64,000 nt of DNA from assembly GCA_903845125.1 (NCBI GenBank), contig CAIMWS010000416.1, forward strand, positions 1-64,000, given 5' to 3'. The stretch comes from an uncultured Verrucomicrobiota bacterium (lineage in GTDB: Bacteria; Verrucomicrobiota; Verrucomicrobiia; Limisphaerales; UBA1319). The position numbers were made by a program, and so were the translations under genes. The number at the start of each line of letters is the position of its first letter. The first letter of the stretch is position 1. This document shows, in pieces, positions 2,014 through 18,070 of this stretch. Below the pieces are notes generated by a model. The model made no database searches, was not told where the DNA came from, and worked only from the letters and a program-made list of their open reading frames with translations.

Positions 2014-2190
2014 CAAACCGGATGTCGATTTTGGAAATGAGCAATAATCCAGATGCTGCCATCAGCCAGCGAGTGAGCCATGGCCGTGCTGGCTGGGGCG
2101 AGCCAGGCCTCAACCGGCCGGTTTTCCGGGCAACGGCCCGGTCACTCAGGCGGGTTGGAGGCGCGAAAACCACCCATTCCGGCGCATAAA

Positions 2191-3129
2191 ATGACCACTG
2201 CCACCGCCAATTCGCCGCTGATCAGTGTGCTGATGCCCATTTATAACCACGAGGCCTTTGTGCGCATCGGTTTGGATAGTGTGGTGCAAACCCGGCACCG
2301 CCCGGTGGAAATTGTGGCCATCGATGACGGATCGACCGACCAATCCTTCGCCATCGCTGAAGCGTGGCAGGCCTCGCTGGCGGATCCGCAGATCTCCATG
2401 CAACTGTTGCGGCAGGATAACCAGGGCTTGGTCAAAACCTTGAACCGGCAAGTCCGGTTGGCCCGGGGGGAATTTTTCGCTTTGCTTGCCAGCGACGATT
2501 TTCTGCAGCCCGACGGATTGGGATGGCTCCTGGATGGACTGCAAAAACATCCGGAGTGGATGGCGGCGATCGGCGATGCCATCCTGGTGGATCAAGAAGG
2601 CCAGGTGACCGCCTCCAGTGCCCTGACCGATTTCTTCAGAGTAAATAAACGGGCTCTGCTGGATCGCCGATTCATCACCCGGGAAATGATCCTGCGTTGG
2701 GGGGTGCCTGGCGGTGCGATCATGATCCGGCGCCACTCCTTCCACGGCGGGGAGGGGATCGGTTTTTATGACGAAAGCCTCCCTTTTGAGGACCGGGATT
2801 ATTTCTTAAAATTGTTGGCCAGGAATGCCGTGGGATTTGTCGATGCTCCGGTATCCGGGTACCGCCGCCATTCCGCCAATTTTTTCAAAGTGCCCGACCG
2901 GGAAAAGCTGGCCCGTTATTACCGTGGTTTGCACCAGGCCGAGGTGCAGAATCTGCCGCTGTTCCGCGGCGGGGATTGGCTGGGATTGCGGCTGACTTCC
3001 TGGATGGCCTGGACGCTTTACCAGCGCACCCTGGCTCCCGGCCGTTGGCTCGATCTCAAAGTGAGGCTGCTCTGGATCCTGATGCGGATGGCGTATTGGC
3101 GCCACGAAAGGCGCGTGGCGGCCGCGTGA
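2191..3129 (+). CDS. Family 2 glycosyltransferase
   Basis: A 312-residue GT-A fold glycosyltransferase. The N-terminus reads ISVLMPIYNHEAFV, followed by VEIVAIDDGSTDQS, the nucleotide-sugar binding motif of GT2, and LLASDDFLQPDG, which contains the metal-binding acidic pair. A later PFEDRDYFLKLL matches the acceptor/catalytic region (ED pair). GT2 enzymes transfer a sugar from an NDP- or polyprenyl-linked donor, usually for surface glycans. An upstream in-frame ATG at 2080 would add 37 residues without family similarity, so the ATG at 2191, just before the conserved strand, is preferred. It stands alone and converges with the next gene. Confidence 0.85.
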   Translation: MTTATANSPLISVLMPIYNHEAFVRIGLDSVVQTRHRPVEIVAIDDGSTDQSFAIAEAWQASLADPQISMQLLRQDNQGLVKTLNRQVRLARGEFFALLASDDFLQPDGLGWLLDGLQKHPEWMAAIGDAILVDQEGQVTASSALTDFFRVNKRALLDRRFITREMILRWGVPGGAIMIRRHSFHGGEGIGFYDESLPFEDRDYFLKLLARNAVGFVDAPVSGYRRHSANFFKVPDREKLARYYRGLHQAEVQNLPLFRGGDWLGLRLTSWMAWTLYQRTLAPGRWLDLKVRLLWILMRMAYWRHERRVAAA

Positions 3130-3315: not shown

Positions 3316-5922
3316 TCAATGGGATGCTTGAATCCGCACCAGGGCACACCCACGCTGCAACGGGACCTCCAGCCGCCATTGCCCGTCGCGGATGCGGAAG
3401 GGAACGGGAACCGTACTTTCCGAACCAGGGTGCCAGGCCTCACACGTGGCTGGCGCCGCCTCCAGACGCGCATCCAGATTCTTTAGAAGGATCACGGCGC
3501 TCGCAGCCTGACCTCCAAAGGTCACCGGGATCAACCAGCCACCGGGAACTTCGAATAGATTGGCCTTCACCTGGGGATTTTCCGATCCGATCGCGTGGGG
3601 TTCCAGAACCCAGGTGCGGCCGCGCAGTTGGGTGAACAGCGGGCCGTAATCGAGATACCATTTTTCAGCCCAGGCACTGGCGTTGATCGTATGGTCATTG
3701 GCAGGCAGCGGCGCCGTGGGATAAACCCCCAGGTAAAGGTGCCGTTGGAAATAGGCATCGGGATCGGGCCTCAGCACCTCCTCGTTCGGGGTCCACGCCA
3801 CGCACGGTTTGCGCACGCACTGCAGGGCCGAGTTGTTGAGGTCGGCACCCACATGGCCGAATTCATGATATATGCCATCGACCTGGCGCAGCAGTTCGGT
3901 GCGGTTGATCATGGCATTTACAAAGATCACCTTGTCTGCCCGGTGGAAGATCGGACCCAGATCGGACATCAGGTTCCGCCAGGAGGAATATAGCGAGCGG
4001 CAAGCCTGGTCGTGCCTCCAGGACACTTCATCGTCGGCCCGGAAATTATAAAAACGCAGCCAATCCAGGCGGTCGATGCAGATGCCGGAGGAAGCGGGCA
4101 GGAGGTCGACATGCCGCTGTGCCTGGTCGAGCAGGAAGGCGCGGTAGGCGGGGCCGCCGCAGTCCATGGCGATGCTTCCCTCCCAGGATCCGAACACGCG
4201 CCCCTTGAGGCTGAGCAGGATGCCATCGGGAATCTTCAGATAGAGGAAATTATTGACGTTTTTCCAGTAATCCGGCGGCTGCAGCCGGGGGTCGGCATCC
4301 TTGGCTTCCCCCATTTTGCCGCCGAATTCCGTGACGTTGAAATAATTCAGCACATGAAACCCCGATTGGCGCATCCGCTCCGAATAATCACGCAGCTGCC
4401 CGATGGAAGTCTGGTTGCCTTTGGCCAGCCGGGTGTAGGGCGTGGCATCCGGGATGGGCGGCAGGAACATGCCCATGTAGGGGAAGTCGTAGCTGGCTTT
4501 CCAATTGAAGCGGAAGCCCATTTTCCGGAGCCGGGCGGCGTCCAGGCCGCCCTCCCAATCCGAGTATCCCCCCAGCCCGGCCACCTCGTGGGCCCGGGGA
4601 TTGGGCGGGTTGAAATATTCCCCGTATCTCCGTACCATCCAGCCCAAGCCGCTCCGCCAGTCCGCTGCATGGGCCACGAGGTTCATGGCGAAGCGGACCG
4701 GCTTGGCTCTCCCCAGCCGGTGGTCATTGCGGATGAACGTGAACAGGCCCGGTTTCCGGATGCTCAAGGCCATTTCCAGCAGGGTATCCTCGGGAGATAG
4801 CACCAGGCTCAGGCCGCGATCGGATGGTTCCTCCGCCACCGTGAACATCGGGATCGCAAACCGTTTGCCGTATCCGGGCTGATATCCGGAGGAGGCTCGC
4901 GCTTCGTCCCAGCGCGGCGCGCCATACCAAAGCCGGGCGTTATCCAGCGGTTGCATCACCAGCGGATCCTGCCAGTCGCCGCCCTTTTGCCGGGGATCAT
5001 CCCAGGCGGTCCACCACCGGGACTTTTCAGAAGCCGGCCAGGCCAGCCAGGTTTCAATGCTGGTGCTCCAAGGATCTTCCTCGCTGGAGATTTCGATTTC
5101 CCAGCGCACGCTATCTCCGGCGGGATAAAAACACTCTGTCAGGTTCGCCCGTTTCCCAGAAACAGCATGCCTGATCGGCCGCCGGAATTCGATTTTGCCG
5201 GCGCCCAGTTCCCGCACCTGAACCGGACCGGTATTCGTGCATTGCGCCAGCCGGGTTCCTCCCTGGAAGGGGCGCAATTCCTGGCCATTCAGCAGCGCTT
5301 TCACCAGGTTCCCCTCCGCGGAGAGAGCCAGCTTCAGGCCGGCCGTTTCCACCGGATAGCGCGGCAGTCCGGGCGGCGGCAGTTCTGCGAGAGCCGGTTT
5401 TTCAAAACGGCCCGTCAGCATCGCTTCGGCCCAATCAGCATGATCGCAGGTGATCCCATCCCCGCCGTCGGTGACCGCCAGCCGCAGCTCCTGCACACCC
5501 GCCAGGGGGACGCTGATTCGCCGGGCCGGGGTTTCTGGCCGCATCACGCCGCTATCGAACAGTTCTTTCCCATCGGCCACCACCTTGAAAACCACGCTTC
5601 CGTTGGTGTAAGAACGCATCGCGGCATCCACTCCCACCCAGGCCTCGAACCGCTCGGCCCGTCCATCCAGCCGGTAAGTCACCAGGCTGCTGGCATGAGT
5701 TCCCAAGCCGGTGGCAAACTGGCGGTCGCCGATGCGGATCGGCTTGCCCCAGACACTTTGATCCACGGCCAAGTCCCCCCAGTCCTGGCTGGCCGTCCAG
5801 GGCTCCAACTCACCCAGGGGAATTGATTTCAGGTCCGGTTCAGCGGCCAGGCCGCTGCCTAGCCCGAGGGCAAAAGCCAACATTCCCAGGTTGAGGACCT
5901 TCATCGCTTTGGGAGTTTTCAA
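3316..5922 (-). CDS. Secreted putative glycoside hydrolase with N-terminal NPCBM domain
   Basis: An 868-residue protein with a Sec signal (MLAFALGLGSGLAAEP). Residues about 30-175 resemble the NPCBM module found on GH98 and related enzymes (QFATGLGTHASSLVTYRL, VFKVVADGKELFDSGVM, ITCDHADWAEA). The remainder looks like a beta-sandwich followed by a TIM-barrel glycosidase. The segment SSGICIDRLDWLRFYN has an Asp placed like the nucleophile strand in clan GH-D-like enzymes, and FVNAMINRTELL and VDGIYHEFGH follow. I could not assign a CAZy family, so the substrate is unknown. It ends with a small C-terminal beta domain. The sugar porter gene lies only 25 bases upstream on the same strand, suggesting an uptake-and-degradation operon. 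Confidence 0.65.
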   Translation of the reverse strand: MKTPKAMKVLNLGMLAFALGLGSGLAAEPDLKSIPLGELEPWTASQDWGDLAVDQSVWGKPIRIGDRQFATGLGTHASSLVTYRLDGRAERFEAWVGVDAAMRSYTNGSVVFKVVADGKELFDSGVMRPETPARRISVPLAGVQELRLAVTDGGDGITCDHADWAEAMLTGRFEKPALAELPPPGLPRYPVETAGLKLALSAEGNLVKALLNGQELRPFQGGTRLAQCTNTGPVQVRELGAGKIEFRRPIRHAVSGKRANLTECFYPAGDSVRWEIEISSEEDPWSTSIETWLAWPASEKSRWWTAWDDPRQKGGDWQDPLVMQPLDNARLWYGAPRWDEARASSGYQPGYGKRFAIPMFTVAEEPSDRGLSLVLSPEDTLLEMALSIRKPGLFTFIRNDHRLGRAKPVRFAMNLVAHAADWRSGLGWMVRRYGEYFNPPNPRAHEVAGLGGYSDWEGGLDAARLRKMGFRFNWKASYDFPYMGMFLPPIPDATPYTRLAKGNQTSIGQLRDYSERMRQSGFHVLNYFNVTEFGGKMGEAKDADPRLQPPDYWKNVNNFLYLKIPDGILLSLKGRVFGSWEGSIAMDCGGPAYRAFLLDQAQRHVDLLPASSGICIDRLDWLRFYNFRADDEVSWRHDQACRSLYSSWRNLMSDLGPIFHRADKVIFVNAMINRTELLRQVDGIYHEFGHVGADLNNSALQCVRKPCVAWTPNEEVLRPDPDAYFQRHLYLGVYPTAPLPANDHTINASAWAEKWYLDYGPLFTQLRGRTWVLEPHAIGSENPQVKANLFEVPGGWLIPVTFGGQAASAVILLKNLDARLEAAPATCEAWHPGSESTVPVPFRIRDGQWRLEVPLQRGCALVRIQASH

Positions 5923-5947
5923 GAGTCGCTTTCAGGATGAGCGGCCA

Positions 5948-7375
5948 TCAATCCACCAGTTCCTTTTCAATCTCCTCCAAGGTTTTACCCTTGGTTTCGG
6001 GCAGGGTGGCCTTGAAGAGGAAGAAACCAACCACGCAGATGATGGCGTAGATCCAGAAGGTCCAGGCTGGTCCCAGCCGGGCATTCAGTTCAGGAAAGCT
6101 TTGGGTGAGGGTAAAGCAGCCGGTCCAAAGGGCGAATACGGCGATCGACATGGCCGCCCCGCGGATGCGGTTTGGGAAGATTTCGGAAAGGATGACCCAG
6201 GTGACTGGGGCCAGGGTGCAGGCATAGCAACCGATGGCCGCGACCACCAACGCCACCACCACCACGCCTTTGATCCCCTGGGCATAGGTGGCCCCCATGA
6301 GCAGGTAGATCAAGGCCAGGCCCGCCCAACCCGCCAGGAACAACGGGCGCCGGCCCAGTTTGTCCACCGAGAATATCGCCACAAAGGTGAAACTCAAATT
6401 GGCCAGCCCGACAATGACGATGTTGAGCAGAATGTCGGATACCGGGTAACCGGCGGCGGTGAAAATATCCTTGGTGTAATAGAAAATGACATTGATGCCA
6501 CACCATTGTTGCATCACCGCCAGGGCAACCCCGAGCAGGAGGATGTAGCGCATTTTGGGTTCGAGCAAGGCGCGGAAATTGACCTTCTCCTGGGCGTTGA
6601 TGAGGGTGGCTTCAATGGCGGCGATGGCCTCCCTGGCGTAGTTTTCACCACCGATTCGCGCCAAAATTGCCCGGGCCGCCTGGGCCTGCCCGTTTTTGGC
6701 CAGCCAACGGGGGCTTTCGGGGACAAAAAACATGCCCAGGAGAAAACAGAAGGCAGGCACCGCGGTGGCGGCAAACATCACCCGCCAACCGGTTTGACCA
6801 TTCCATGAATCCAATATCTGCTGGGCGGTGGCGTTGGCCGGCACTGGTTCAGCGATGCGCCAATTTATAAATTGAGCCAATAATATGCCGATCACAATCG
6901 TGAGCTGGTTGATGGAAACCAGCTTGCCGCGCATTCCAGCAGGGGCGACCTCGGCGATGTACATTGGCGAAAGGTTGGAAGCCATACCGATGGCCGCCCC
7001 GCCCACTATGCGCCAACTCACGAAAGTGGTGTAAGTATGCGCATAAGCGGTGCCCAGGGAGGAGGCGGCGAAGAGAAAGGCGGAAAGGATCAACAGCCGT
7101 TTGCGCCCGAATTTGTCGCTCAATGTCCCCGACAGTAAAGCGCCTACGAGGCAGCCCACCAGAGCACAGCTTTTGGCCCAACCGATGGCCGATGGTGAGG
7201 TTAGCTGGAAGTATTTCTCATAAAACAGGTCCGCCCCGCTGATGACGACCCAATCATAACCAAAGAGCAGGCCGCCGAGGGCCGCTACCAAGGAAATGGA
7301 CCAGATATAGGCCAGGTTGTAGTTGGGAACCGCTCCCACCACTGGCCCGTCCGCTTTTGAGGGGATCATGGGCAT
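5948..7375 (-). CDS. MFS sugar porter (sugar:H+ symporter)
   Basis: A 475-residue, 12-helix sugar porter of the XylE/AraE/GLUT type. Visible family signatures are GGLLFGYDWVVISGA in helix 1, DKFGRKRLL in the first cytoplasmic loop, PESPRWLAKNG before the central loop, a second KLGRRPLF and the C-terminal LPETKGKTLEEIE. It probably imports a hexose or pentose by proton symport at the inner membrane. The frame stays open upstream to 7471, but the upstream codons are a tandem repeat (RVFHGL/RVFHWP) without similarity to porters, so the ATG at 7375 (MPMIPSKADG) or the ATG two codons later is preferred. It probably heads an operon with the NPCBM glycosidase. Confidence 0.9.
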   Translation of the reverse strand: MPMIPSKADGPVVGAVPNYNLAYIWSISLVAALGGLLFGYDWVVISGADLFYEKYFQLTSPSAIGWAKSCALVGCLVGALLSGTLSDKFGRKRLLILSAFLFAASSLGTAYAHTYTTFVSWRIVGGAAIGMASNLSPMYIAEVAPAGMRGKLVSINQLTIVIGILLAQFINWRIAEPVPANATAQQILDSWNGQTGWRVMFAATAVPAFCFLLGMFFVPESPRWLAKNGQAQAARAILARIGGENYAREAIAAIEATLINAQEKVNFRALLEPKMRYILLLGVALAVMQQWCGINVIFYYTKDIFTAAGYPVSDILLNIVIVGLANLSFTFVAIFSVDKLGRRPLFLAGWAGLALIYLLMGATYAQGIKGVVVVALVVAAIGCYACTLAPVTWVILSEIFPNRIRGAAMSIAVFALWTGCFTLTQSFPELNARLGPAWTFWIYAIICVVGFFLFKATLPETKGKTLEEIEKELVD

Positions 7376-7471: not shown

Positions 7472-7806
7472 CCATTCCCGAAAGACGACGATAGACGTGG
7501 TTCAAAAGCCCGGGTTTTCGACTCTGGCTTGATACCCTGTGCGCGGGGGTCCGATCCAAAGCCGCTCCGGTTCAGGCCTGGATGGCGGGACGCAATCCCA
7601 ACGGCCTTATGGGTTTGCGGCTTTACGCTTGATTCCAATGGGCTTTTTAATTCTGATGGCGGGATTGGGAATTTTTACAACCATGCATAAATCCGCCCCT
7701 CACTTCCAAATCGGCGAATTGACAGGCACGAAGTGTCTTCAAAATCCGGTGTTGAATAAGGCCAAGTCATCCCAGGAGGACCAGCCAGTAATATCCCTTT
7801 GAAGTT
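7472..7806. other. Divergent intergenic region between sugar porter and ACP operon
   Basis: About 335 bases with no recognised RNA gene. It must hold the promoter of the large plus-strand operon and probably that of the sugar porter, but no strong -35/-10 pair stood out. A hydrophobic small reading frame at 7638-7802 is listed separately. Confidence 0.4.
7638..7802 (+). CDS. Possible small membrane protein at the head of the operon
   Basis: A 54-residue frame beginning MGFLILMAGLGIFTTMHKSA, a single hydrophobic segment followed by a polar tail. It ends 16 bases before the ATG of the acyl carrier protein gene, on the same strand. No good ribosome binding site precedes the ATG, and the frame could be extended upstream to 7539. 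It matches no family I recognise. The hydrophobic start and operon position are the only support, so this is a weak candidate. Confidence 0.25.
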   Translation: MGFLILMAGLGIFTTMHKSAPHFQIGELTGTKCLQNPVLNKAKSSQEDQPVISL

Positions 7807-7818
7807 TTGGAAACCAGG

Positions 7819-8067
7819 ATGCACTCGGACTCCATAATCACCCATCTTTCCAAGTGGGTGTTGTCAATCAATCACCGCAATGGCGGCAATTTGGAACGGC
7901 TTGATTTGGCCCTGCCCCTGATGGATTCCTCGCTGTTATTGGATTCGTTGGATCTGGCGGAAATCATGGTGGCGGTGGAACAAAAGTACGGGATTAGCCC
8001 TTTTGAGTCGGCCACGCCGCCAAAAACCTGGCAGGATTTGGCTGGCATATGCCAGCGCGCCATTTAG
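7819..8067 (+). CDS. Acyl carrier protein-like protein
   Basis: An 82-residue small acidic protein with the carrier motif LLLDSLDLAEIMVAVEQKYG; Ser43 of DSLDL would carry 4'-phosphopantetheine. Length and helix pattern match stand-alone acyl carrier proteins, although the sequence is unlike housekeeping AcpP. It is followed directly by an AMP-forming ligase, a FabG-like reductase and an acyltransferase, so it is probably a dedicated carrier for that pathway. The ATG at 7819 is preferred; a TTG at 7807 in the same frame would add four residues. Confidence 0.75.
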   Translation: MHSDSIITHLSKWVLSINHRNGGNLERLDLALPLMDSSLLLDSLDLAEIMVAVEQKYGISPFESATPPKTWQDLAGICQRAI

Positions 8068-8075
8068 CCAGGTGC

Positions 8076-9134
8076 ATGGATTTGGTATTCCCCACTTCCT
8101 TTGACGATCTGTTCGCCGTTTTTAGGCGGTTGGAGCAGGGAGCAGTGGCCGCGTTGATGCCACCGGATCAATCTGGCCTCTCCGAATTATCCTCCGCCGA
8201 AATTCCCAGCCAGGGTTGGTTGGGAGTTTGTTCTTCGGGATCCACTGGCCGCCCAAAATTGATTTGGAAACATTGGGCCAGCCTTTGCTCCGATATTCTT
8301 CGGTCGGGCCACATTTCTGGTTGGACTTGGTCCTCCCCATTTTACCCTTACAGTTTCGCCGGCGTTCAGGTGGCACTGCACGCCTGGATGAATCACGGCC
8401 GCGTATTGTTATTGGGATCGGATTGGCCTCAAAATTGGGATCGGTTGAACCAATCCCGGCCGGAAGCCTTGTCTTGCACACCCACCTTCCTCGATTTGCT
8501 GGTGCAAAACGAGCGCGGCAGCCAGCTGTGGTCCCCCCGGCAAATCACTTTGGGCGGTGAACCTTTGCGCGCTGGAGTGGGGGATCGATTCCGGCGGCGG
8601 TTCCCCACCACCCGCGCCAGCGTGATATACGCCACGGCTGAGCATGGGGTTATCCTGAAAACCAACCGCCTGGATGGCTGGTATGAAACCTGGCGCCTGA
8701 CGGAGCGGTTTACCCAGTGGCGCGTCGTGGAACAGGCCTTGGAGTTGCGGGTGGAGGAGGCTTGGAAACCGACCGGAGATTTGGTGGATATCAGTGGGGA
8801 TTTGTTGCGCATCGTGGGCCGTGCTGACCGGGTGGCCAACGTCGGTGGCGCCAAGGTCAGTCTCGATCTGATCGAAGAAAAGGCCGAGCAGGTGGCGGGT
8901 ATCCGGCAGGCATTGGCCACCGCCGAGGCCAACTCCATCACCGGTCAAATCGTCTCCCTTCATTACGAAGTGGCGAAGGGATTTGATCCCAGCACCGTGA
9001 CTTCGGAACTTCAAAACCGCTTGCGCGCCAGCCTCAGCAAGGAAGCCTGGCCACGCCGCTGGAATCTCACGGACCTCGGATTGGGCGCGAACGCCAAGCG
9101 CTTAAACCAGCGTATGCCCGCGGGTGATATATGA
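8076..9134 (+). CDS. Short AMP-forming acyl ligase (adenylating enzyme)
   Basis: A 352-residue member of the AMP-binding (ANL) superfamily. The phosphate-binding loop SSGSTGRPK is at residues 53-61, TLGGEPL and VIYATAEHG follow, and PTGDLVDISGDLLRIVGRAD plus VGGAKVSLDLIE mark the hinge and C-terminal domain. Canonical enzymes have the P-loop near residue 150-190, so about 100 N-terminal residues are missing. It would activate a carboxylic acid as acyl-AMP and probably load it onto the adjacent carrier protein. The ATG at 8076 lies eight bases after the ACP stop; an alternative ATG at 8049 would overlap it. The stop overlaps the next gene by ATGA. The substrate is unknown. Confidence 0.75.
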   Translation: MDLVFPTSFDDLFAVFRRLEQGAVAALMPPDQSGLSELSSAEIPSQGWLGVCSSGSTGRPKLIWKHWASLCSDILRSGHISGWTWSSPFYPYSFAGVQVALHAWMNHGRVLLLGSDWPQNWDRLNQSRPEALSCTPTFLDLLVQNERGSQLWSPRQITLGGEPLRAGVGDRFRRRFPTTRASVIYATAEHGVILKTNRLDGWYETWRLTERFTQWRVVEQALELRVEEAWKPTGDLVDISGDLLRIVGRADRVANVGGAKVSLDLIEEKAEQVAGIRQALATAEANSITGQIVSLHYEVAKGFDPSTVTSELQNRLRASLSKEAWPRRWNLTDLGLGANAKRLNQRMPAGDI

Positions 9135-9862
9135 GCCAAACCACGAGTTCACGCATCCTGGTTACGGGTGGATCCCGGGGTTTGGGCCTGGCTATTTGCA
9201 CCCGGTTGCTGACGGAGGGGCAGGAGGTGTTTACGCTGGCCCGTTCGATTTCCGCCGAGGTCCAAAAACTGGCGGCCTCCTTTCCGGGCAGGCTCCATTT
9301 CCATCCGGTGGATCTCGCTGATCGGGAGGCGGTGGATGGTTATGTAAAACAGCACCCCTGGCTGATGGACCTGGATGGTTTGGTGGCCAATGCGGCCTTG
9401 GGCACTGACGGTTTGTTGCTGATGACTCCCGACGCGGCCCTTCGGAAGTGCATCGAGGTGAACCTGACCTCAACCGTGGTTTTGACCAAAACCATCCTTA
9501 AGGGCATGCTGCAGCGAGGGGGGAACCTGGTTTTTATTTCCTCCATCGCAGCCAAGACAGCCCTTAAAGGCCTCTCAGTTTATAGCGCTACCAAAGCTGG
9601 GCTGGCGGCGTTTTGCCGCACGATCGCCAAAGAATACGGGGAACGAGGCATCCGGGCCAATTGCATTTTGCCGGGATTTTTGGACACCGAAATGAGCCAC
9701 GGTCTGAACGACCACCAGCGCCAGCAGATCATCCGGCGCACCGCACTGCGGCGCCTGGGTGAGGGGGACGATATTTGTGGGGTGGTTTCCTTTCTTCTGT
9801 CCCCCGCTGCACGGTTCATTACCGGCGCGGAAATAGTGGTTGATGGAGGATTCAGCATTTGA
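9131..9862 (+). CDS. SDR oxidoreductase, 3-oxoacyl-ACP reductase (FabG)-like
   Basis: A 243-residue classical short-chain dehydrogenase. The cofactor motif TGGSRGLGLA is near the N-terminus, ISSIAAKTALKGL carries the catalytic Ser and SVYSATKAG the Tyr151-x3-Lys155 pair. It ends with ITGAEIVVDGGFSI, typical of FabG proteins. The likely reaction is NAD(P)H-dependent reduction of a 3-oxoacyl group on the neighbouring carrier protein, though other carbonyl substrates are possible. The start overlaps the ligase stop by ATGA and the end overlaps the next start, indicating translational coupling. Confidence 0.85.
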   Translation: MSQTTSSRILVTGGSRGLGLAICTRLLTEGQEVFTLARSISAEVQKLAASFPGRLHFHPVDLADREAVDGYVKQHPWLMDLDGLVANAALGTDGLLLMTPDAALRKCIEVNLTSTVVLTKTILKGMLQRGGNLVFISSIAAKTALKGLSVYSATKAGLAAFCRTIAKEYGERGIRANCILPGFLDTEMSHGLNDHQRQQIIRRTALRRLGEGDDICGVVSFLLSPAARFITGAEIVVDGGFSI

Positions 9863-10494
9863 AAATTCCGATGGGAACCGATTGCCCGGTGGAGTTCCGG
9901 CCGGGACGTTTGATGGCGGAGACGGTGCTCAAGCAGTGGCTTGGCTCCTGCGGTTTCGGGGTGAAGGTGTATCATGGATGCCGCATTTTATTCCCCGAGC
10001 GCCTGCACCTGGGGCACTTCTCACAAATTGACGAAGGGACTTTTATTCACGCCGGGGAAGGGGTGACCATCGGCAACCATGTTCACCTGGCATATGGTTC
10101 GGCCATTTTGGGCGGTGGCAAATGCCTGATCCATGATTTTGCCGGGATCAGTCCCGGGGCGCGGTTGATCACTGGCACCGATAATCCGGATGGCAGTGGC
10201 CTGATTGGCCCCACCATCCCGGCTTCGTTCCGGGCGGTAACCCGCGGCCTCGTGGAGATTCAAGCCCATGCGTTGATATTCGCCAATGCCACGATCCTGC
10301 CTAATGTAACGATTGGCGAGGGATCCGTGGTGGCCGCCGGCGCGATTGTTCACCATTCGCTGAAACCATGGGGGATTTATGCGGGCAGCCCCCTGGTGCA
10401 AATCGGAGTTCGCCCCGCGGAAAAAATCCGCCAACTGGCGGCCGAATTGGCGGCCAGCGAGGGTGGTTTCAAACCCCGTGCTGATCGGGAATAA
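9859..10494 (+). CDS. Left-handed beta-helix (hexapeptide) acyltransferase
   Basis: A 211-residue protein built from hexapeptide repeats (HLGHFSQIDEGTFIHAGEG, VTIGNHVHLAYG, ATILPNVTIGEGSVVAAGA) and ending IYAGSPLVQIGVRPAEKI, the tail typical of WbbJ/LacA/NodL-type acetyltransferases. Such enzymes are trimers that move an acyl group, usually acetyl from acetyl-CoA, to a sugar hydroxyl or amine. Here an acyl-ACP donor is possible, given the upstream genes. The frame starts with TTG at 9859, overlapping the reductase stop; an ATG at 9871 is the alternative start. Confidence 0.8.
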   Translation: MKIPMGTDCPVEFRPGRLMAETVLKQWLGSCGFGVKVYHGCRILFPERLHLGHFSQIDEGTFIHAGEGVTIGNHVHLAYGSAILGGGKCLIHDFAGISPGARLITGTDNPDGSGLIGPTIPASFRAVTRGLVEIQAHALIFANATILPNVTIGEGSVVAAGAIVHHSLKPWGIYAGSPLVQIGVRPAEKIRQLAAELAASEGGFKPRADRE

Positions 10495-10506
10495 CCGGAG
10501 GTTTTC

Positions 10507-11331
10507 ATGCCCAATGAACCAGTAATGCCATCCGTTGAACCAACCAGGCAGACCTCAGCCACTCCCAAGTCGGCGGGGGTGGGAGTGTTGATCATCAGCC
10601 TGGCGATTTTGACCGTTTGGTGTTTCCCCAAATATTGGTATAACCAGTATGATGCCCGTGCCAATCGTTATTGGCTTACCGCCCATACGAATATTGCCGG
10701 CTGGCAATATACCCCCATTCCCATCGACAAATCCGCTGAAAAGGTATTGGTGGCTGACGCGCTGACCAACGGTGAATATAAGAACCCGCAAGGTGCCATG
10801 ATCCGCGTTTTTCTGGCGAAACGTTACGTGGAAAATAACGATGAAATCGGCCTTTTCGTGCATACGCCGGATCGTTGCTGGACCGAGGCCGGATGGCATA
10901 TCGAACCGGCTCCGATGGAACTTGCGGAGGTTTCGGTGGCTGGGCTGCAAATGCCCATGGAACGTCGCGTTTTCACCACTGCCAGCCAGCGGGAATTGGT
11001 TTATTTTGGCGGTCTGGTGGGGGGGCAGCCGCTGCCTTATCGGCTGGACCATAATTTGTCCGTGGGAATGAAGCACCAACTACGCCAAAATTTGGATAAA
11101 ACCGGCAGCAGTCTCCGGGCTGGAGACAAGCGCCTTTGGACCCGCGTGTGGGATGCCTTCAAATCGCGGCGGCCTTTGCTGGGACCCAAGGAGTTCATCC
11201 GTGTTTCCATGCCCGTCAAAGATGGCAACCTGGAGGCGGCTGACCGCCAGTTGCAGGAATTCATGGGCCGCTGGCTGCAACCGGTGGATTATCAGGACGA
11301 ATTGAACCGATGGAAAACCGTCAAGTCATGA
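10507..11331 (+). CDS. Exosortase-associated EpsI-like protein
   Basis: A 274-residue protein with one N-terminal membrane segment (VGVLIISLAILTVWCF) and a periplasmic domain. The signature VHTPDRCWTEAGWHIEP matches the conserved heart of EpsI (DUF3485), normally H-S/T-P-x3-C-x3-G-W. EpsI proteins are encoded beside or fused to exosortases; their exact role in exopolysaccharide assembly or sorting is not settled. Here the gene precedes the exosortase rather than following it. A good AGG lies before the ATG, and the stop overlaps the next start. EpsI is usually near 200 residues, so this one is somewhat longer. Confidence 0.75.
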   Translation: MPNEPVMPSVEPTRQTSATPKSAGVGVLIISLAILTVWCFPKYWYNQYDARANRYWLTAHTNIAGWQYTPIPIDKSAEKVLVADALTNGEYKNPQGAMIRVFLAKRYVENNDEIGLFVHTPDRCWTEAGWHIEPAPMELAEVSVAGLQMPMERRVFTTASQRELVYFGGLVGGQPLPYRLDHNLSVGMKHQLRQNLDKTGSSLRAGDKRLWTRVWDAFKSRRPLLGPKEFIRVSMPVKDGNLEAADRQLQEFMGRWLQPVDYQDELNRWKTVKS

Positions 11332-12230
11332 AGGATCGTGGCCAGTATTGGCTTTTGTTGCCAGCGGGATTGGCGTTTGCCTGGCTGGTGTCCAAGGCCC
11401 AATGGTTTTGGAATCACAATCCGGAGCTCAGCTTCGGCTGGGTGGTGGTCATGCTCTGCGGGTTTTTATTCTGGGATGCCAGCGAAACCCGGCCGCCCTT
11501 TGATTTCCGCTGGCGGTTGCTCGGTATTTTGCCCGGCGCGCTCGGTTTGGGCTGGTTGTTTTTTGTCCAGCTATACCAAGCCGCTTACGGCAGCAACGCC
11601 GCCAGCGCGCAAGGCCTGGCGATGGGGGTTTTTGCGTTGGTGGCCGCCAACTTGATGCTGGCCTTCGGTTGGCCGGGCTTGCGCCATTACGCCTTTGCTT
11701 TTTTCTTCATCTGGCTGGCGCTGCCGCTGCCCTCAGCCGTCTTGAATTTGGTGATCTCCAACCTCCAGCACGGGATAGCCGCGGCCAACGTTGAAATCCT
11801 CAACCTGGCAGGCATCCCGGCGCAAAAAAGGGGTAGCCTCGTCCAATTGGCCAATTGCGTGGTGGGCATTGATGAGGCTTGCAGCGGAATCCGCAGCCTC
11901 CAGTCCACCGTCATGGCGACCTTGTTTATCGGTTATCTTACTTTGAAGAACAATTCCTTGCGCCTGACGCTCCTCGTCGGGGGTGTTTGCCTGGCCATCG
12001 TGGGCAACCTGATCCGTTCCCTGTATTTGAGCATCACCGCTCACAATCATGGTGTTGAAGCGATCAAATCCGTGCATGACCAGGCGGGTTGGACCATCCT
12101 GGTGTTTACCGTGGTGGGAGTGGCTTTGGGTTCGTGGGCTTTGGGCCACCTTGAAAAAATGTTGCAGCAGCTCAGCACCCAATCCACCGAACCACAGCCC
12201 CTGGCGCCGGGTCCGGACGCTGGCTCATGA
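11328..12230 (+). CDS. Exosortase (EpsH-type membrane transpeptidase)
   Basis: A 300-residue polytopic membrane protein of the exosortase/archaeosortase family. The catalytic triad is visible: Cys185 in DEACSGIRS, Arg230 in NLIRS and His250 in SVHDQAGW. Exosortases cleave C-terminal sorting signals such as PEP-CTERM and attach the protein to a surface structure; they sit in exopolysaccharide gene clusters. The start at 11328 gives an ATGA overlap with the EpsI gene; an upstream ATG at 11310 would add six residues. No target protein with a PEP-CTERM tail was noticed in this window. The stop overlaps moaD. Confidence 0.88.
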   Translation: MKDRGQYWLLLPAGLAFAWLVSKAQWFWNHNPELSFGWVVVMLCGFLFWDASETRPPFDFRWRLLGILPGALGLGWLFFVQLYQAAYGSNAASAQGLAMGVFALVAANLMLAFGWPGLRHYAFAFFFIWLALPLPSAVLNLVISNLQHGIAAANVEILNLAGIPAQKRGSLVQLANCVVGIDEACSGIRSLQSTVMATLFIGYLTLKNNSLRLTLLVGGVCLAIVGNLIRSLYLSITAHNHGVEAIKSVHDQAGWTILVFTVVGVALGSWALGHLEKMLQQLSTQSTEPQPLAPGPDAGS

Positions 12231-12466
12231 AAATCCTCTTTTTTGCCCAGTTGGTTCAGGCGACCGGGAAGCCTGAACTGGAGTTGGCCATTGATCAACC
12301 CCTCTCCGGGGATGAGCTTTGGCGGCGATTATCGCGGGATTACCCGGCGTTGGGTCCCTTTAAATCCCATATTCGGCTCGCCCGCGACTGCGAGTATGTT
12401 CCCTGGGATTCCCTCCTGGAAAACCACCACGAAGTGGCCTTAATCCCTCCAGTTTCCGGGGGCTGA
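12227..12466 (+). CDS. moaD: Molybdopterin synthase sulfur carrier subunit MoaD
   Basis: A 79-residue ubiquitin-fold protein starting MKILFFAQLVQATGK and ending ALIPPVSGG. The C-terminal Gly-Gly is the site that becomes a thiocarboxylate and donates sulfur in molybdopterin synthase. The moaE gene follows four bases downstream. The start overlaps the exosortase stop by ATGA, so it is translationally coupled to an unrelated function. Length and terminus are normal for MoaD. Confidence 0.9.
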   Translation: MKILFFAQLVQATGKPELELAIDQPLSGDELWRRLSRDYPALGPFKSHIRLARDCEYVPWDSLLENHHEVALIPPVSGG

Positions 12467-12470
12467 CTGC

Positions 12471-12863
12471 TTGGAAACATTAATCCAGATTACCACCGAG
12501 CCGATTGAGCGCAGCCAGTTGGATGCTCCGCCTGATTTGCCTGAAATGGGTTCGTGGGTGGAGTTTTTCGGGGTGGTGCGGGGGATGGAAGATGGGCGGC
12601 CAATCCAGGCTCTGGAATACCAGGCTTATCAGGAAATGGCCATCCGTGAAATGCGCTCCATCCTGGAACGGTTGGACGCCAAAAATCCCTGCTTAAGAGC
12701 GCGGATCATCCATCGGATTGGCGTCATACCCGTGGGTGAGAACGCCATTTACGTGGGAATTGCCTCGGCCCATCGAGGCGAAGGCTTCACGCTATTGGCC
12801 TCGTTTATGGATTGCCTAAAACGGGACGTGCCAATTTGGAAGGTCCGGTCCATTCCCTGTTGA
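12471..12863 (+). CDS. moaE: Molybdopterin synthase catalytic subunit MoaE
   Basis: A 130-residue protein with MoaE hallmarks: GSWVEFFGVVRG near the N-terminus, EYQAYQEMAIREM in the middle, IIHRIGVIPVGENAIYVGI, the SAHRGEGF motif and DVPIWKVR near the C-terminus with the catalytic lysine. Together with MoaD it converts cyclic pyranopterin monophosphate to molybdopterin. The frame appears to start with TTG at 12471, four bases after moaD. The C-terminus is a little shorter than in E. coli MoaE. Confidence 0.88.
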   Translation: METLIQITTEPIERSQLDAPPDLPEMGSWVEFFGVVRGMEDGRPIQALEYQAYQEMAIREMRSILERLDAKNPCLRARIIHRIGVIPVGENAIYVGIASAHRGEGFTLLASFMDCLKRDVPIWKVRSIPC

Positions 12864-12879
12864 AAAGCCCGCTCTTATT

Positions 12880-14067
12880 ATGATCCCGGTTTCAGAGGCT
12901 TTGGAAATCATCCGGTCCCAGTGTGTGCCGCTTCCGGTGGAACCGGTCGCTTTGGACCAATGCTGGCATCGGGTGTTGCGTGAGGAGATCCACGCCACCG
13001 AAGATTTGCCCGCGTTCGATCGGGCCGCCATGGATGGGTATGCCATCGGGCGGGATGATCCCGCTGAAGAGTTCGGTGTTGTGGGCGAACTCCAGGCGGG
13101 CGGAACCTGGGCCGGCGCCATCGGGAAGGGCCAGGCGCTGCGCATATTCACCGGCGCCGCTTTGCCCCCGGGTGGCTTGCGGGTGGTGATGCAGGAGGAT
13201 GTGGAGATCCAGGGGGGGAAGATCAAGTTGCGCCGCCGGAGCGCGGAACTGAACATTCGTTTTCGGGGGGAAGACGCCCGCCGGGGTACCCGTTTGTTAT
13301 CCCAGGGCACCCGGCTGGGTGGTGGTGAAATGGCGGTGCTCGCCTCCCTGGGGCAGACCCGGCCGCAAGTGGCTCGCGCGCTCCGGGTGAGCCATTTTGT
13401 GATGGGTGATGAGTTGGTGCCGCCGGGTGGCACACCCCAGGCCGGGCAAATCCGCAACAGCAACTCATCCCTCCTGCAAGGTTTGCTGCGCGATATGGAT
13501 TTGGCGCCCCGGCAAGGCTGGCTCCGCGATGATGTGGAAGCCGCCCTTCAGCAATTGCGGTCCGAGGCGGTGGACCAGGCGGATCTCCTGCTGATCTCCG
13601 GCGGGACCAGTGTGGGGAAAATGGATTTCACCCGTCCGCTCCTGGAGCGTTTGGGATTCCAGATCCATATTTCCAAGGTGTGCGTCCGGCCTGGAAAACC
13701 GCTCCTGTTCGGCACCAGCGGCAACCGGGTGGCTTTTGGCTTGCCGGGCAATCCGCTGTCTCATTTTGTCTGTTTCCACCTTTTTGTGGCGGAGGCCATC
13801 CGGTGTTTACAGGGATTGCCGTCCCGGCCAGGTTTGCCGTCCGCCTTTCTGGAGGGCGGCCTCCCCGGCTGTCTGAACGAACGTGAAACTTATGCTCCCG
13901 CCCGGATTTCCACGGGGGGCGGAAGGCAGCATTTAACTCCGCTGGCCTGGCGCAGTTCGGGTGATGTAGTATCGCTGATCGATGTGAATGCCTTGCTGCA
14001 AATACCGGCTGGAACTCCGGAGTTGGCCGCGGGCGCTGTGGTCAGTTACCTGCCGGTTACCCATTAA
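12880..14067 (+). CDS. moeA: Molybdopterin molybdenumtransferase MoeA
   Basis: A 395-residue protein with the MoeA pattern: LPAFDRAAMDGYAI, IFTGAALPPGG, a MogA-like domain with LLISGGTSVGKMD and KVCVRPGKPLLFG, then GLPGNPLSHFVCF, and a C-terminal beta domain. It inserts molybdate into adenylated molybdopterin. It is the third Mo-cofactor gene in a row, 16 bases after moaE. Length is normal. Confidence 0.92.
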   Translation: MIPVSEALEIIRSQCVPLPVEPVALDQCWHRVLREEIHATEDLPAFDRAAMDGYAIGRDDPAEEFGVVGELQAGGTWAGAIGKGQALRIFTGAALPPGGLRVVMQEDVEIQGGKIKLRRRSAELNIRFRGEDARRGTRLLSQGTRLGGGEMAVLASLGQTRPQVARALRVSHFVMGDELVPPGGTPQAGQIRNSNSSLLQGLLRDMDLAPRQGWLRDDVEAALQQLRSEAVDQADLLLISGGTSVGKMDFTRPLLERLGFQIHISKVCVRPGKPLLFGTSGNRVAFGLPGNPLSHFVCFHLFVAEAIRCLQGLPSRPGLPSAFLEGGLPGCLNERETYAPARISTGGGRQHLTPLAWRSSGDVVSLIDVNALLQIPAGTPELAAGAVVSYLPVTH

Positions 14068-14071
14068 ACAC

Positions 14072-14554
14072 ATGCCCGGAAATAAAGCAGGCGGCTCAAC
14101 GCCAAACCGTCCGCAATTCAGCCACCTGGATGCCAGGGGTGAGGCTTCGATGGTCAAGGTGGGGGCCAAGCCGGTTCAATTCCGCCGGGCCGTGGCCGAA
14201 GCGATTCTGAACTGCGCGCCCGCTACGATCTCTGCTTTGCGGGAGCAGGCGCTGCCCAAGGGAGATGCCTTGGCCGTGGCCCGGGTGGCCGGCATCCAGG
14301 CGGCCAAAAAGACGGCTGACCTGATCCCGCTTTGCCACCCTTTGGCGCCGCATTTCATTGGCGTGGAATTCGTCGTTCAATCCCGGTGCGTTAAAATCCG
14401 CTGCACGGTTGAAATCGAAGCCAAAACCGGGGTTGAAATGGAAGCCCTTACCGGCGCCGGAATCGCGGCCTTGACCCTCTACGATATGTGCAAGGCGATC
14501 GATAAATCCATGCACGTCGATGGCCTTCGCGTTCTACAAAAACTCAAGCAATGA
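14072..14554 (+). CDS. moaC: Cyclic pyranopterin monophosphate synthase MoaC
   Basis: A 160-residue protein with the MoaC signatures [33 protein letters not shown] and [20 protein letters not shown] followed by [10 protein letters not shown]. MoaC rearranges the MoaA product into cyclic pyranopterin monophosphate. The ATG at 14072 comes five bases after the moeA stop; the frame stays open further upstream, but that part overlaps moeA. Its partner moaA is not in the window. The stop overlaps the next start by ATGA. Confidence 0.92.
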
Positions 14555-15033
14555 TCATTGGCCGCATCACCCTGAGCGACCGCGCCTCCGCCGGCATTTA
14601 TGAAGACCGCAGCGGGCCGGAGATCGAGCGGATTCTGCGCGCTCATTTCGCAGGCGATCTGGTTTTCGAAACCGCCCTGATCCCGGACGATCGCGAATTG
14701 ATTGTACGGAAACTCACCGAATTCGTCGATGAGCGCGGTTGCGAATTGGTGGTGACCACCGGCGGTACCGGGCCGATGCGGCGCGATGTCACCCCCGAAG
14801 CCACGCGGGAAGTCCTGGCTAAGGAGCTTCCCGGCTTCGGTGAGGCGATGCGGATGCAATCCTTCGCCAAAGTCAAAACTTCCATCCTATCCCGGGCCAC
14901 GGCGGGCATCCGCGGCCGTTCGCTGATCATCAATCTTCCCGGCAATCCCAAAGCCATCAGCGAATGCCTGGAAATTCTTCTGCCCGCCATCCTCGAGGCG
15001 TTGCGCCATCTGCGCGAGGATTTCGCGGCCTGA
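14551..15033 (+). CDS. mogA: Molybdopterin adenylyltransferase, MogA/MoaB type
   Basis: A 160-residue single-domain protein: IGRITLSDRASAGIYEDRSG at the start, VVTTGGTGPMRRDVTPEAT in the middle and IINLPGNPKAISECLEIL near the end. These match the MogA/MoaB fold that adenylates molybdopterin before MoeA acts. It is the last gene of the plus-strand operon and converges with the GH2 gene only nine bases away. The symbol mogA is chosen over moaB from the SDRASAG and DVTPEAT motifs. Confidence 0.88.
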   Translation: MIIGRITLSDRASAGIYEDRSGPEIERILRAHFAGDLVFETALIPDDRELIVRKLTEFVDERGCELVVTTGGTGPMRRDVTPEATREVLAKELPGFGEAMRMQSFAKVKTSILSRATAGIRGRSLIINLPGNPKAISECLEILLPAILEALRHLREDFAA

Positions 15034-15042
15034 TCCCCGATT

Positions 15043-17958
15043 CTATTTTCCTTGCGGACTGGCCTTTGCGGCCGGTTCGCCAAGCAATTCCTGCACCTGT
15101 TTGGGTGCCAGTTTACAGGCCGGTTTAAATCCCGGGCTGCTCATATATTTCAGCAGGCTGGCCCGCATTTGCCGTGCCACCGGTCTCTCCCCGAGATTGG
15201 TTTCCAGATCGATCCCGCAGGCCAGGAGGCGTCCGCCATTGACTTGGGCTTCAAAAACCAAGCCCAGCCGCCGGTTGGTGAACCAATCATCAATCACCTG
15301 CACGATGGGCCGCAGGTCGGCTGGCAGGCCATTCAGGATGAACGGGTGGGACTGCGTCACCAATTCCCACCATTGCCAGTTGCTGTGGGCCTCGGTTGGG
15401 AAATCCGCCAATGCCGCGTGTTTGGGATCGCACAGGATCCCCAAGGTATGCGGGGCTTGCCGGCGGGTCCAGGCGGTGTTCCAAAAGATGCTGGAGAAGC
15501 CGGCGGGGATGCGACCGGAAGCATCGCCCTTGATGCTGGCGACCGGGGGCAGCAGCAACACCTTTTGGCCCGCGCTCAAGGCTGCCAGGACCGCTTCGTC
15601 CAGCTTGGCGGTTACCACAATTTCGGGGGCTTGGGGTGGGGGCGTGCCCGCGCTCGGATAGACCCAGAAATCCCAGTCATTGGCAAAGGGGGTTCCTTCC
15701 AGCGCCACTTCCAGGTTGAATTTGCCCGCCTTGCGGATGCCGTTTAACGGGAAATTCACGCGCCCCAGCAAGGTCAGTTCGCCGGTCGCTGCGGTGGACT
15801 GGGGAAATTGGCCGGAGGCCACCACCTGGCCGGTGCTGTCCTTGATCCGCCACCCAGGCCGCAGGTTTTCGAGTTTCGTGGGGCCGTAGTGAGCCAGTTC
15901 TACTTGGGCGGCGAAATTTTCCTCCTGGGTCAGGATGCGTTTGCGCATGCGAGCCAGGGGGACGGTCTCACAGGCAAAGCGGCTGAACTCGCCCGCCGAA
16001 ACGTATCCTTTCGACTCCCAAAACGGGTCCAGGATGCCCACCAAAGCGGTCCCTTGCCCGGGAAAGTCGTGCAGATCCAGCAGCTCAAATCCGCCAAACC
16101 CCGGGGTGCGCAAAGCGGATTCGATCTCCTCCTTATAGCAAAGCACCTGCAGTTTGCCGGAAGCCATCAACAGGCTGCGGGCCTGGTCCAGGAGATGGTT
16201 GGCCTTGAGCCCATCCCGGAAGATTTCAAAATTTTTCGCCTTCAGCACACCGGTGTATTTGTTGGTCTCCTCCAAATTCGGGTAAACACACCATTGGCCA
16301 ATCTCGTGGCTGATGACCGGCGCCTTGCTGCCCGCCACAAAATCGCGGTAGTCGGTGAAGGTTTCCGGCGGGCGCGCATTGATCCGGCTACCCAGCCCCT
16401 GGCCCCATTGCTGCACGCGCGGGGTGGGGGTCACGTGGAAATCATTCTCCGGCAGCATGGGCCAGCCGGCGGCGCTGGTGTAAAGCCGGCGGGGATCTTT
16501 TTGCTTCCACGAATTCACGAGGCGGCCCAGGTAAGTGTTCTGTTTGGAGCCGCCGGGCTCGTTCCCGTAAGACATCATGACCAGGGAGGGATGGTTGCCG
16601 TAGGCTTTCAAGATGCGGTCCCCTTCGGCTTCGATCCAGCGATCCACCGGTTTGCCGTCGCCCACCGCGGTCCAGCTGGCGCACTCCGCATACAGGTAAA
16701 AGCCCATTTCATCCGCCGCCACAAAAGCCGCTTCCGGAGGGCACCAGGAGTGGAAACGGATATGGTTCAATCCATGAGCCCGGCAGGCGCGCAGCACCTT
16801 TTTCCACGCCTCGGTATCGGTGGGGGGATATCCCGTCCGGGGGAAAATGGCGCATTCCAGGGTGCCCCGCAAAAAGACCTTGCGCCCGTTGAGGACCAGC
16901 TGATTGCCTTCCGCATGGAAATCCCGCACCCCAAAAACCACGGTTCGTACATCCCTCAGGGTGGTTTTCCCGATCCGGGCTTGCAGGGTGGCGTTCAGCC
17001 GGTATAAGGCCGGGGAAAATTCATCCCACGCCAGGACTTTGTCACCCAGCGGCCATTCAAATTCATTGGTGGACCATCCAGGTGGAAGGTTCAGCGGCAC
17101 AAACTTGCTGGGCGGCTCCACGGCTTCCTGGGTGTTGAAAGCCCGGCTTTGGATCACTACTTCAGCGGACACTGGGTGACTGGTGATATTCCGGATCACC
17201 ACGCGCAGGCGGGCGAGCTTATTGGCCAAATCCGGAAAGACTTGAATATCGTCCATGGCCACCGGCTCCATGGCAATCAGTCTTAATTGGCCCGTCAGGC
17301 CGTTCCAATTGCTTTGCGTGTGGTCCGATACGCTGTGCGCATTGGAGCCCACATCCACTTTCAAGCGGTTGTCGACCCGGATGGTCAGCCGGTGGGTGCC
17401 GGGACCCAGCAAGGCGCTCAAGTCGTATTCGTGGGGCGTGGACAGGCTATCGCTGGAACCAGCCCGCTGGTCATCCACCCAGACCGTGGTCTCCCAATGG
17501 GCCCGCTCCAGTTGCAGTAGAATCCGCTTTCCCTTCCAGTTTCCCGGTATCTTCACCTCCCGCTGGTACCACGCAGCTCCCACATAATGACGCTCCGGTG
17601 TCAGCCAGAACGGAACCTTGACGTTGCCGGTTTGCCGGTAAGGCGCATATTTTGGATCGGTGAAATAGGAGCGATCCACGATCTGGCCGGTCCAGGCCGT
17701 GTTGGTGCCCGGCACATCTCCGTAGCCCTGGGCTTGTAAGGAACCCGGAAGCTGGATTTTGTTTTTTGCCAATTCCTTTCTGAACCAGGCGTCCTTGATT
17801 CCCCGATCCTCCCGATCCAGTTTGATGGACCAGGTTCCGGCCAGCGGGATCTGGTTTCCGTTGTCTTCCTTGCGTGGGGCGGCGATCGCCAGCCCACTGG
17901 TCATCAAACAGGCGATCATCCGCCATATCCAGGTCCAGTCAGTTTTATTTGTGTTCAT
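15043..17958 (-). CDS. Secreted glycoside hydrolase family 2 protein
   Basis: A 971-residue GH2-type enzyme with a hydrophobic signal (MIACLMTSGLAIAAP). It has the sugar-binding jelly roll (WYQREVKIPGNWKGKRILL, TTVWVDDQRAGSSDS), an immunoglobulin-like domain and a TIM barrel with LRGTLECAIFPRTGYP, MSYGNEPGG (acid/base Glu467) and PVISHEIGQW (nucleophile Glu552). The C-terminal 300 residues hold further beta domains. GH2 covers beta-galactosidases, beta-glucuronidases, beta-mannosidases and others; the exact specificity cannot be told. The frame extends upstream to an ATG at 18000; the ATG at 17958 is closer to the signal peptide and is preferred. Confidence 0.85.
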   Translation of the reverse strand: MNTNKTDWTWIWRMIACLMTSGLAIAAPRKEDNGNQIPLAGTWSIKLDREDRGIKDAWFRKELAKNKIQLPGSLQAQGYGDVPGTNTAWTGQIVDRSYFTDPKYAPYRQTGNVKVPFWLTPERHYVGAAWYQREVKIPGNWKGKRILLQLERAHWETTVWVDDQRAGSSDSLSTPHEYDLSALLGPGTHRLTIRVDNRLKVDVGSNAHSVSDHTQSNWNGLTGQLRLIAMEPVAMDDIQVFPDLANKLARLRVVIRNITSHPVSAEVVIQSRAFNTQEAVEPPSKFVPLNLPPGWSTNEFEWPLGDKVLAWDEFSPALYRLNATLQARIGKTTLRDVRTVVFGVRDFHAEGNQLVLNGRKVFLRGTLECAIFPRTGYPPTDTEAWKKVLRACRAHGLNHIRFHSWCPPEAAFVAADEMGFYLYAECASWTAVGDGKPVDRWIEAEGDRILKAYGNHPSLVMMSYGNEPGGSKQNTYLGRLVNSWKQKDPRRLYTSAAGWPMLPENDFHVTPTPRVQQWGQGLGSRINARPPETFTDYRDFVAGSKAPVISHEIGQWCVYPNLEETNKYTGVLKAKNFEIFRDGLKANHLLDQARSLLMASGKLQVLCYKEEIESALRTPGFGGFELLDLHDFPGQGTALVGILDPFWESKGYVSAGEFSRFACETVPLARMRKRILTQEENFAAQVELAHYGPTKLENLRPGWRIKDSTGQVVASGQFPQSTAATGELTLLGRVNFPLNGIRKAGKFNLEVALEGTPFANDWDFWVYPSAGTPPPQAPEIVVTAKLDEAVLAALSAGQKVLLLPPVASIKGDASGRIPAGFSSIFWNTAWTRRQAPHTLGILCDPKHAALADFPTEAHSNWQWWELVTQSHPFILNGLPADLRPIVQVIDDWFTNRRLGLVFEAQVNGGRLLACGIDLETNLGERPVARQMRASLLKYMSSPGFKPACKLAPKQVQELLGEPAAKASPQGK

Positions 17959-18070
17959 GATTTCTTGGAAATCGATCGTTCCCTGCTGTTTATGTGCCAT
18001 TCGTTTTCCACTGTAAGCTGGGTTTATTCAATCCGCTCTGGATGATGGCGTCAAACCGGCATTTGGCCCG

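Follow-up and report, generated by a model that had tools for sequence, protein, structure and literature searches.

A conserved acyl carrier cassette beside EpsI and an exosortase in a Verrucomicrobiota order, with a proposed role in amino-sugar N-acylation

Results

We analysed a stretch of 64,000 nucleotides (here called the window) from contig CAIMWS010000416.1 of an uncultured Verrucomicrobiota bacterium of the order Limisphaerales (assembly GCA_903845125.1), in which six genes run head to tail on the + strand at positions 7819-12230. They encode an acyl carrier protein (ACP), an AMP-forming ligase (LIG), a FabG-like reductase (SDR), a hexapeptide acyltransferase (HEX), an EpsI-like protein (EPSI) and an exosortase (XRT). 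The sugar genes that neighbour this cassette in related genomes and the AntD/PglD type of its transferase suggest that a 4-amino-4,6-dideoxy sugar nucleotide is N-acylated, and we consider it probable that the cassette makes an N-acylated sugar of this kind for a polysaccharide whose locus carries EpsI and the exosortase.

The ACP gene (7819..8067, +) encodes a predicted dedicated carrier of 82 amino acids with the serine of a DSL motif and is conserved in 14 loci. It overlaps by 19 bases with LIG (8049..9134, +), a short (361 amino acids) AMP-forming ligase of the ANL superfamily and a putative acid:ACP ligase. SDR (9131..9862, +), the FabG-like protein and proposed oxoacyl-ACP reductase, overlaps by 4 bases both with LIG and with HEX (9859..10494, +), which has a TTG start and is predicted to be an AntD-like N-acyltransferase with a left-handed beta-helix. 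After a gap of 12 bases follows EPSI (10507..11331, +), an EpsI/DUF3485 protein, which overlaps by 22 bases with XRT (11310..12230, +), an exosortase of the EpsH family. Matches above the Pfam cut-offs were obtained to AMP-binding (LIG), adh_short (SDR), Hexapep (HEX), DUF3485 (EPSI) and Exosortase_EpsH (XRT).

The original prediction, made from the sequence alone, had described six genes joined by overlaps or tiny gaps, and all six lie where it placed them with the spacing that it described. It had drawn the unit from 7638 to 12230; the latter is indeed the end of XRT on the + strand, but the start is too early, as ACP begins at about 7819 and an open reading frame of 54 codons at 7638-7802 is without support. 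The co-directional run also continues beyond 12230, to 15033: moaD starts inside the XRT stop codon (4-base overlap) and is followed by moaE, moeA, moaC and a mog-like gene (12227-15033). Membership of these molybdopterin genes in the cassette's function was rejected, since a sugar transferase holds that place in relatives; for the same reason, the XRT/moaD junction looks like a rearrangement.

The search for LIG covered 245 genomes of the order, and gene neighbourhoods were read in two rounds, first with single sequences, later with profiles for nine families. Orthologs of LIG were found in 20 of these genomes, representing about 15 genera, plus one remote match. Of these 20 genomes, 16 carry the set ACP-LIG-SDR-HEX-EPSI-XRT, with order and content varying locally; in a single case it stops at EPSI, where the contig ends. 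One genome (G192) carries two halves of the block at contig ends (L026 and L092), and a locus from another collection (L078) has the full set. Across many genera, the proteins of the block are approximately 35-57% identical (35-49% for ACP across 14 loci), and their conservation is far beyond chance. The protein distances of the six cassette genes correlate, in keeping with common inheritance; the divergence of LIG, SDR, HEX, EPSI and XRT speaks for a joint role. Two of the records, L068 and L070, are titled Candidatus Omnitrophota and Akkermansia muciniphila but match contigs placed in this Verrucomicrobia order, so their titles are probably wrong.

The expectation that the gene order would recur in relatives and co-occur with exosortases was borne out: the block lies beside EpsI and the exosortase in 16 of 20 genomes and apart from exosortases in three, far from the separation in nearly all relatives that was named in advance as its refutation. 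Exosortases of the XRT type occur in 64 of the 245 genomes overall and in 19 of the 20 with LIG (hypergeometric p ∼1e-11, ignoring relatedness). This enrichment, together with an adjacency to EpsI, often with overlap, that is repeated over some fourteen genera of the order, argues against the acyl cassette and the exosortase having unrelated functions and only travelling together in one polysaccharide island. Such an arrangement is nonetheless quite possible, although we lean away from it: epsH is nearly always found among polysaccharide genes according to its founding paper (PMC1569441), exosortase loci without the ligase occur, and at three loci outside the order (L101-L103) remote acyl triads have no EpsI or exosortase nearby. 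It would be compatible with sugar acylation and denies only a shared task.

A profile search identified AntD as the nearest solved structure to HEX (E 2e-36), and Foldseek with the HEX model placed AntD chains at ranks 1-13, with entry titles that give dTDP-4-amino-4,6-dideoxyglucose and 3-hydroxybutyryl-CoA as ligands. The equivalent of AntD Asp94 (numbering derived from the HEX/AntD alignment and the mutant names in AntD entry titles) is HEX position 108, which is D or E in 16 of 16 sequences; the position of AntD Ser84 is Ser in the window's HEX and mostly Gly in relatives. From its nearest relative and this acidic residue, HEX is predicted to catalyse sugar N-acylation in the manner of AntD. 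HEX itself scores 57 bits against the NeuD/PglB/VioB model TIGR03570 (cut-off 160.8), whereas at L017 and at two loci from outside the order (L099 and L104) its slot is occupied by a NeuD/PglB/VioB-family transferase above that curated cut-off. The occupation of one slot by two transferase families, both of amino-sugar-nucleotide kinds, is the strongest single argument that the cassette N-acylates a sugar. Acylation of a lipid or protein by HEX was set aside given the AntD/PglD relationship.

Sequence alone annotates hexapeptide proteins poorly, and a triad of ACP, LIG and SDR lacking HEX occurs outside the order. HEX could accordingly be a conventional O-acetyltransferase that modifies the polysaccharide from acetyl-CoA, with the other three proteins making something else, such as a lipid, but we find this improbable: the O-acetyltransferases, the next family in the profile search, match at only 4e-13 or worse, and the proteins that replace HEX in its slot are NeuD/PglD-type sugar acyltransferases.

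Other loci carry different acyl modules. L085 is an XRT-type exosortase locus that lacks LIG; here, a 3-hydroxyacyl-CoA dehydrogenase and a thiolase (3549-6183) sit between a sugar transferase and the genes for a CapD-type protein, EpsI and the exosortase, and are another possible source of 3-hydroxyacyl groups. The same exosortase type is accompanied by remote ligase/SDR sets at L082, L083 and L086, the last with a NeuD-type transferase. At L099 (8757-18461) and L104 (8862-18579), an ACP, ligase, SDR, NeuD/PglD protein and EpsI occur with a LegC aminotransferase, sugar transferase and dehydratase; the exosortases of these genomes are elsewhere, not with the acyl module and EpsI.

Among the other acyl proteins, ACP scores 16.7 bits against the Pfam PP-binding model (cut-off 20.8), yet the DSL serine is present in 14 of 14 aligned relatives, with an invariant RNGG motif upstream of it. 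LIG is shorter than standard ligases by approximately 150 N-terminal residues and keeps the P-loop SSGSTGxPK, Asp244, Arg258 and the C-terminal Lys350; a search of viral contigs with LIG returned no relative. The catalytic Asn111-Ser138-Tyr151-Lys155 of SDR is invariant in 18 sequences, and among NCBIfam models SDR is nearest to 3-oxoacyl-ACP reductases. This tetrad, the reductase likeness and the hydroxyacyl donors of AntD suggest that an oxoacid is loaded, reduced to hydroxyacyl-ACP and then transferred.

The nature of the loaded acid could be questioned, as the best NCBIfam model for LIG by E-value is an amino acid adenylation domain (2e-15) and DltA and a peptide synthetase are among its close relatives in the PDB; on that reading, the product would be an aminoacyl sugar. 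However, alignment with DltA and the peptide synthetase showed that the Asp that binds the alpha-amino group in amino-acid adenylation domains is replaced by Ala104 in 18 of 18 LIG sequences, so a standard alpha-amino acid is an unlikely substrate. All LIG scores are also far under the curated cut-offs, an aminoacyl product would leave the FabG-like reductase without a role, and AntD works with hydroxyacyl groups. An aminoacyl sugar, set aside on the missing Asp, therefore appears very improbable.

In relatives, the cassette is embedded in genes for sugar-nucleotide synthesis: a DegT aminotransferase with its best match in the LegC family precedes ACP, a PglC/WbaP-type bacterial sugar transferase (Bac_transf) follows the exosortase, and a Polysacc_synt_2 (CapD/PglF-type) dehydratase is close by. 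In the Pgl route, UDP-4-amino-4,6-dideoxy-GlcNAc is made and loaded by a dehydratase, an aminotransferase and a sugar transferase. At L022 (10421-12979), L024 (6398-8869) and L026 (5893-8520), single open reading frames of approximately 850 amino acids with two aminotransferase domains lie upstream of ACP and look like fused sugar aminotransferases; for the L022 frame, Pfam analysis confirmed a PseC-like followed by a LegC-like domain.

No sugar-nucleotide gene was found among the ten window neighbours of the cassette that were scanned. Elsewhere in the window's genome, contig C338 carries a LegC aminotransferase, with 56% identity to the one at L031, and immediately after it a sugar transferase (71% to that of L023), and C30 carries a dehydratase (63% to the L022 copy); as judged from these homologs, the sugar pathway is complete but dispersed. 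Near the cassette, the window encodes a beta-helix protein (476-1912), a family 2 glycosyltransferase (2080-3129), an NPCBM protein (3316-5922) and a GH2-like protein (15043-18000).

EPSI matches DUF3485 (PF11984) at 51.7 bits (cut-off 26.1) and falls short of TIGR02914 (30.3 bits, cut-off 42.8), which marks it as a divergent EpsI; its HTPDRCW motif is invariant. XRT matches PF09721, the EpsH family, at 139.5 bits (cut-off 25.7), and its Cys191, Arg195, Arg236 and His256 are invariant in 15 sequences. None of the named NCBIfam exosortase types (XrtA, B, C, D, V, W and others) scored above its cut-off with XRT: the best typed model was XrtA (89.8 against 208), and the generic TIGR02602 gave 102.7 against 105.55. 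PEP-CTERM proteins were found in all ten genomes tested, including G158, where the single exosortase is of the XRT type. The window's genome has three further exosortases of other types, on contigs C541, C31 and C364 (L058, L059 and L060); after the one on C541 come a short EpsI-like gene and an EPS sugar transferase of full length.

Discussion

Genes for the first, second and last steps of the pathway proposed here are present in the window's genome, and a likely first sugar of the exosortase-associated polysaccharide would be UDP-4-amino-4,6-dideoxy-GlcNAc acylated on its 4-amino group. In the proposed pathway, a CapD/PglF-type dehydratase would convert UDP-GlcNAc to the 4-keto-6-deoxy sugar, which a LegC/PglE-type aminotransferase would turn into UDP-4-amino-4,6-dideoxy-GlcNAc. 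LIG would adenylate a small acid without an alpha-amino group, such as acetoacetate or another oxo acid, and load it onto the phosphopantetheine of ACP. SDR would then reduce oxoacyl-ACP to hydroxyacyl-ACP, and HEX would transfer the hydroxyacyl group, possibly 3-hydroxyacyl, onto the sugar nucleotide at its 4-amino position. Finally, a PglC/WbaP-type transferase would place the sugar-1-phosphate onto undecaprenyl phosphate to start the glycan. Each reaction, the order of the steps and the identity of the acyl group are predicted from the homologies above. EpsI and the exosortase would belong to the same export system and act there on PEP-CTERM proteins; that the exosortase makes use of the glycan is equally conjectural.

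Several observations weigh against N-acylation of a sugar by this cassette as a unit. The window's own genome keeps its dehydratase, aminotransferase and sugar transferase outside the cassette, which is instead followed by molybdopterin genes. At L029, L030 and L032, all of one genus, LIG-SDR-HEX stand apart, the exosortase is elsewhere in the genome and ACP was not detected in the stretch read, while L028 consists of ACP-LIG-EPSI-XRT without SDR or HEX. The correlated divergence of the cassette proteins may partly, or even wholly, mirror species history. The HEX model is of low to modest confidence (pLDDT 64), but the result of the sequence search is in line with it. The AntD crystals contain a CoA thioester, so that use of acyl-ACP by HEX is an extrapolation from that enzyme.

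The original prediction did not recognise this layout. For the acyl part there is a precedent, the Pseudomonas syringae viosamine island. It makes a viosamine of the N-(3-hydroxybutyryl) type, an N-(3-hydroxy-1-oxobutyl) sugar, with an ACP, an acyltransferase and a 3-oxoacyl-ACP reductase that deletion showed to be required (PMC3927599). This island and the flagellar glycosylation island of P. aeruginosa PAK (vioA, vioB, vioR, vioS, acp) share with the cassette a 4-amino-4,6-dideoxy sugar aminotransferase, an acyltransferase, a 3-oxoacyl-ACP reductase and, as predicted here, a dedicated ACP. They differ in using the ketosynthase III VioS where the cassette has a ligase and no ketosynthase, and in having a dTDP sugar and flagellin as target, with no exosortase or EpsI. 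The anthrose pathway of the Bacillus cereus group provides the nearest relative of HEX, AntD, a dTDP-4-amino-4,6-dideoxyglucose N-acyltransferase with hydroxyacyl donors, but the AntD structures hold CoA thioesters and a dTDP sugar, and we know of no exosortase context for this pathway. The PglF-PglE-PglD-PglC bacillosamine route of Campylobacter resembles the proposed one in its dehydratase, LegC/PglE-type aminotransferase, N-acyltransferase and PglC/WbaP-type transferase, and a NeuD/PglD-family protein occupies the HEX slot at some loci; its donor is acetyl-CoA, whereas the cassette has a carrier-bound acyl group. XrtA/PEP-CTERM loci also tie an AMP-forming ligase, the exosortase A-associated TIGR03098 acyl-CoA ligase, to an exosortase system, but LIG differs in length and scores only 19.5 bits against that model (cut-off 592.35), and XRT is not XrtA. 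A search of the literature for exosortases together with an acyl carrier or ligase found nothing direct. The pairing of such chemistry with an exosortase type that has no name appears to be new, as do loading by a ligase where the viosamine island has a ketosynthase, the recurrent position next to EpsI and this exosortase, and the swapping of acyl modules.

The original prediction had also suggested that an unusual acyl group is built on the dedicated carrier and attached either to an extracellular polymer or to the sorted protein. The neighbouring genes and the AntD/PglD-type transferase favour the polymer, and direct support for the sorted protein is lacking. An extension of sugar acylation, rather than an exclusive rival to it, would connect the two: the exosortase might join cleaved PEP-CTERM proteins to the acyl-amino sugar of an undecaprenyl-linked glycan, as the type IX sortase of Porphyromonas does with its cargo. 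A study of the type IX system still termed the compound to which exosortase substrates are attached unidentified; it found an amide bond between cargo C termini and a seryl- or glycyl-amino sugar, and speculated on an exosortase parallel (PMC7468200). The cassette adjoins EpsI, the exosortase and the glycan-initiating transferase in 12 loci, and G158 combines PEP-CTERM proteins with no exosortase other than the XRT type. On the other hand, most genomes with an XRT-type exosortase lack the ligase (64 genomes against 20), so the acyl sugar is not generally needed by the exosortase. Sortase-like transfer moreover requires a nucleophile such as an amine, whereas LIG lacks the Asp that binds an alpha-amino group and SDR fits a hydroxy acid, and at L099 and L104 the acyl module accompanies EpsI with the exosortases elsewhere. 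We therefore judge this extension unlikely, and equally its corollary that the acyl cassette tunes the acceptor and that the variant modules of sister loci define acceptor types. The type IX linking sugar (Wbp/Vim; Porphyromonas, Tannerella) is alike in anchoring proteins, by a sortase-type reaction, to an acyl-modified amino sugar (PMC7468200), but its amino-acyl group is attributed to VimA, the sugar is a di-N-acyl uronic acid and the sortase is unrelated.

If sugar N-acylation is the function of the cassette, it would link amino-sugar chemistry to the EpsI/exosortase pair of a sorting system that is still poorly understood, and give a concrete molecule to seek by mass spectrometry. It would also describe a ligase-loaded, carrier-based N-acylation of bacillosamine- or viosamine-like sugars, in which both the acyltransferase and the source of the acyl group can be exchanged, for Verrucomicrobia, a phylum with little-known glycan chemistry. 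By analogy, the cassette is a candidate for type IX-like protein-to-amino-sugar chemistry in an exosortase system; were the extension to protein attachment true, the acyl-amino sugar would be the partner to which XRT-type exosortases join PEP-CTERM proteins.

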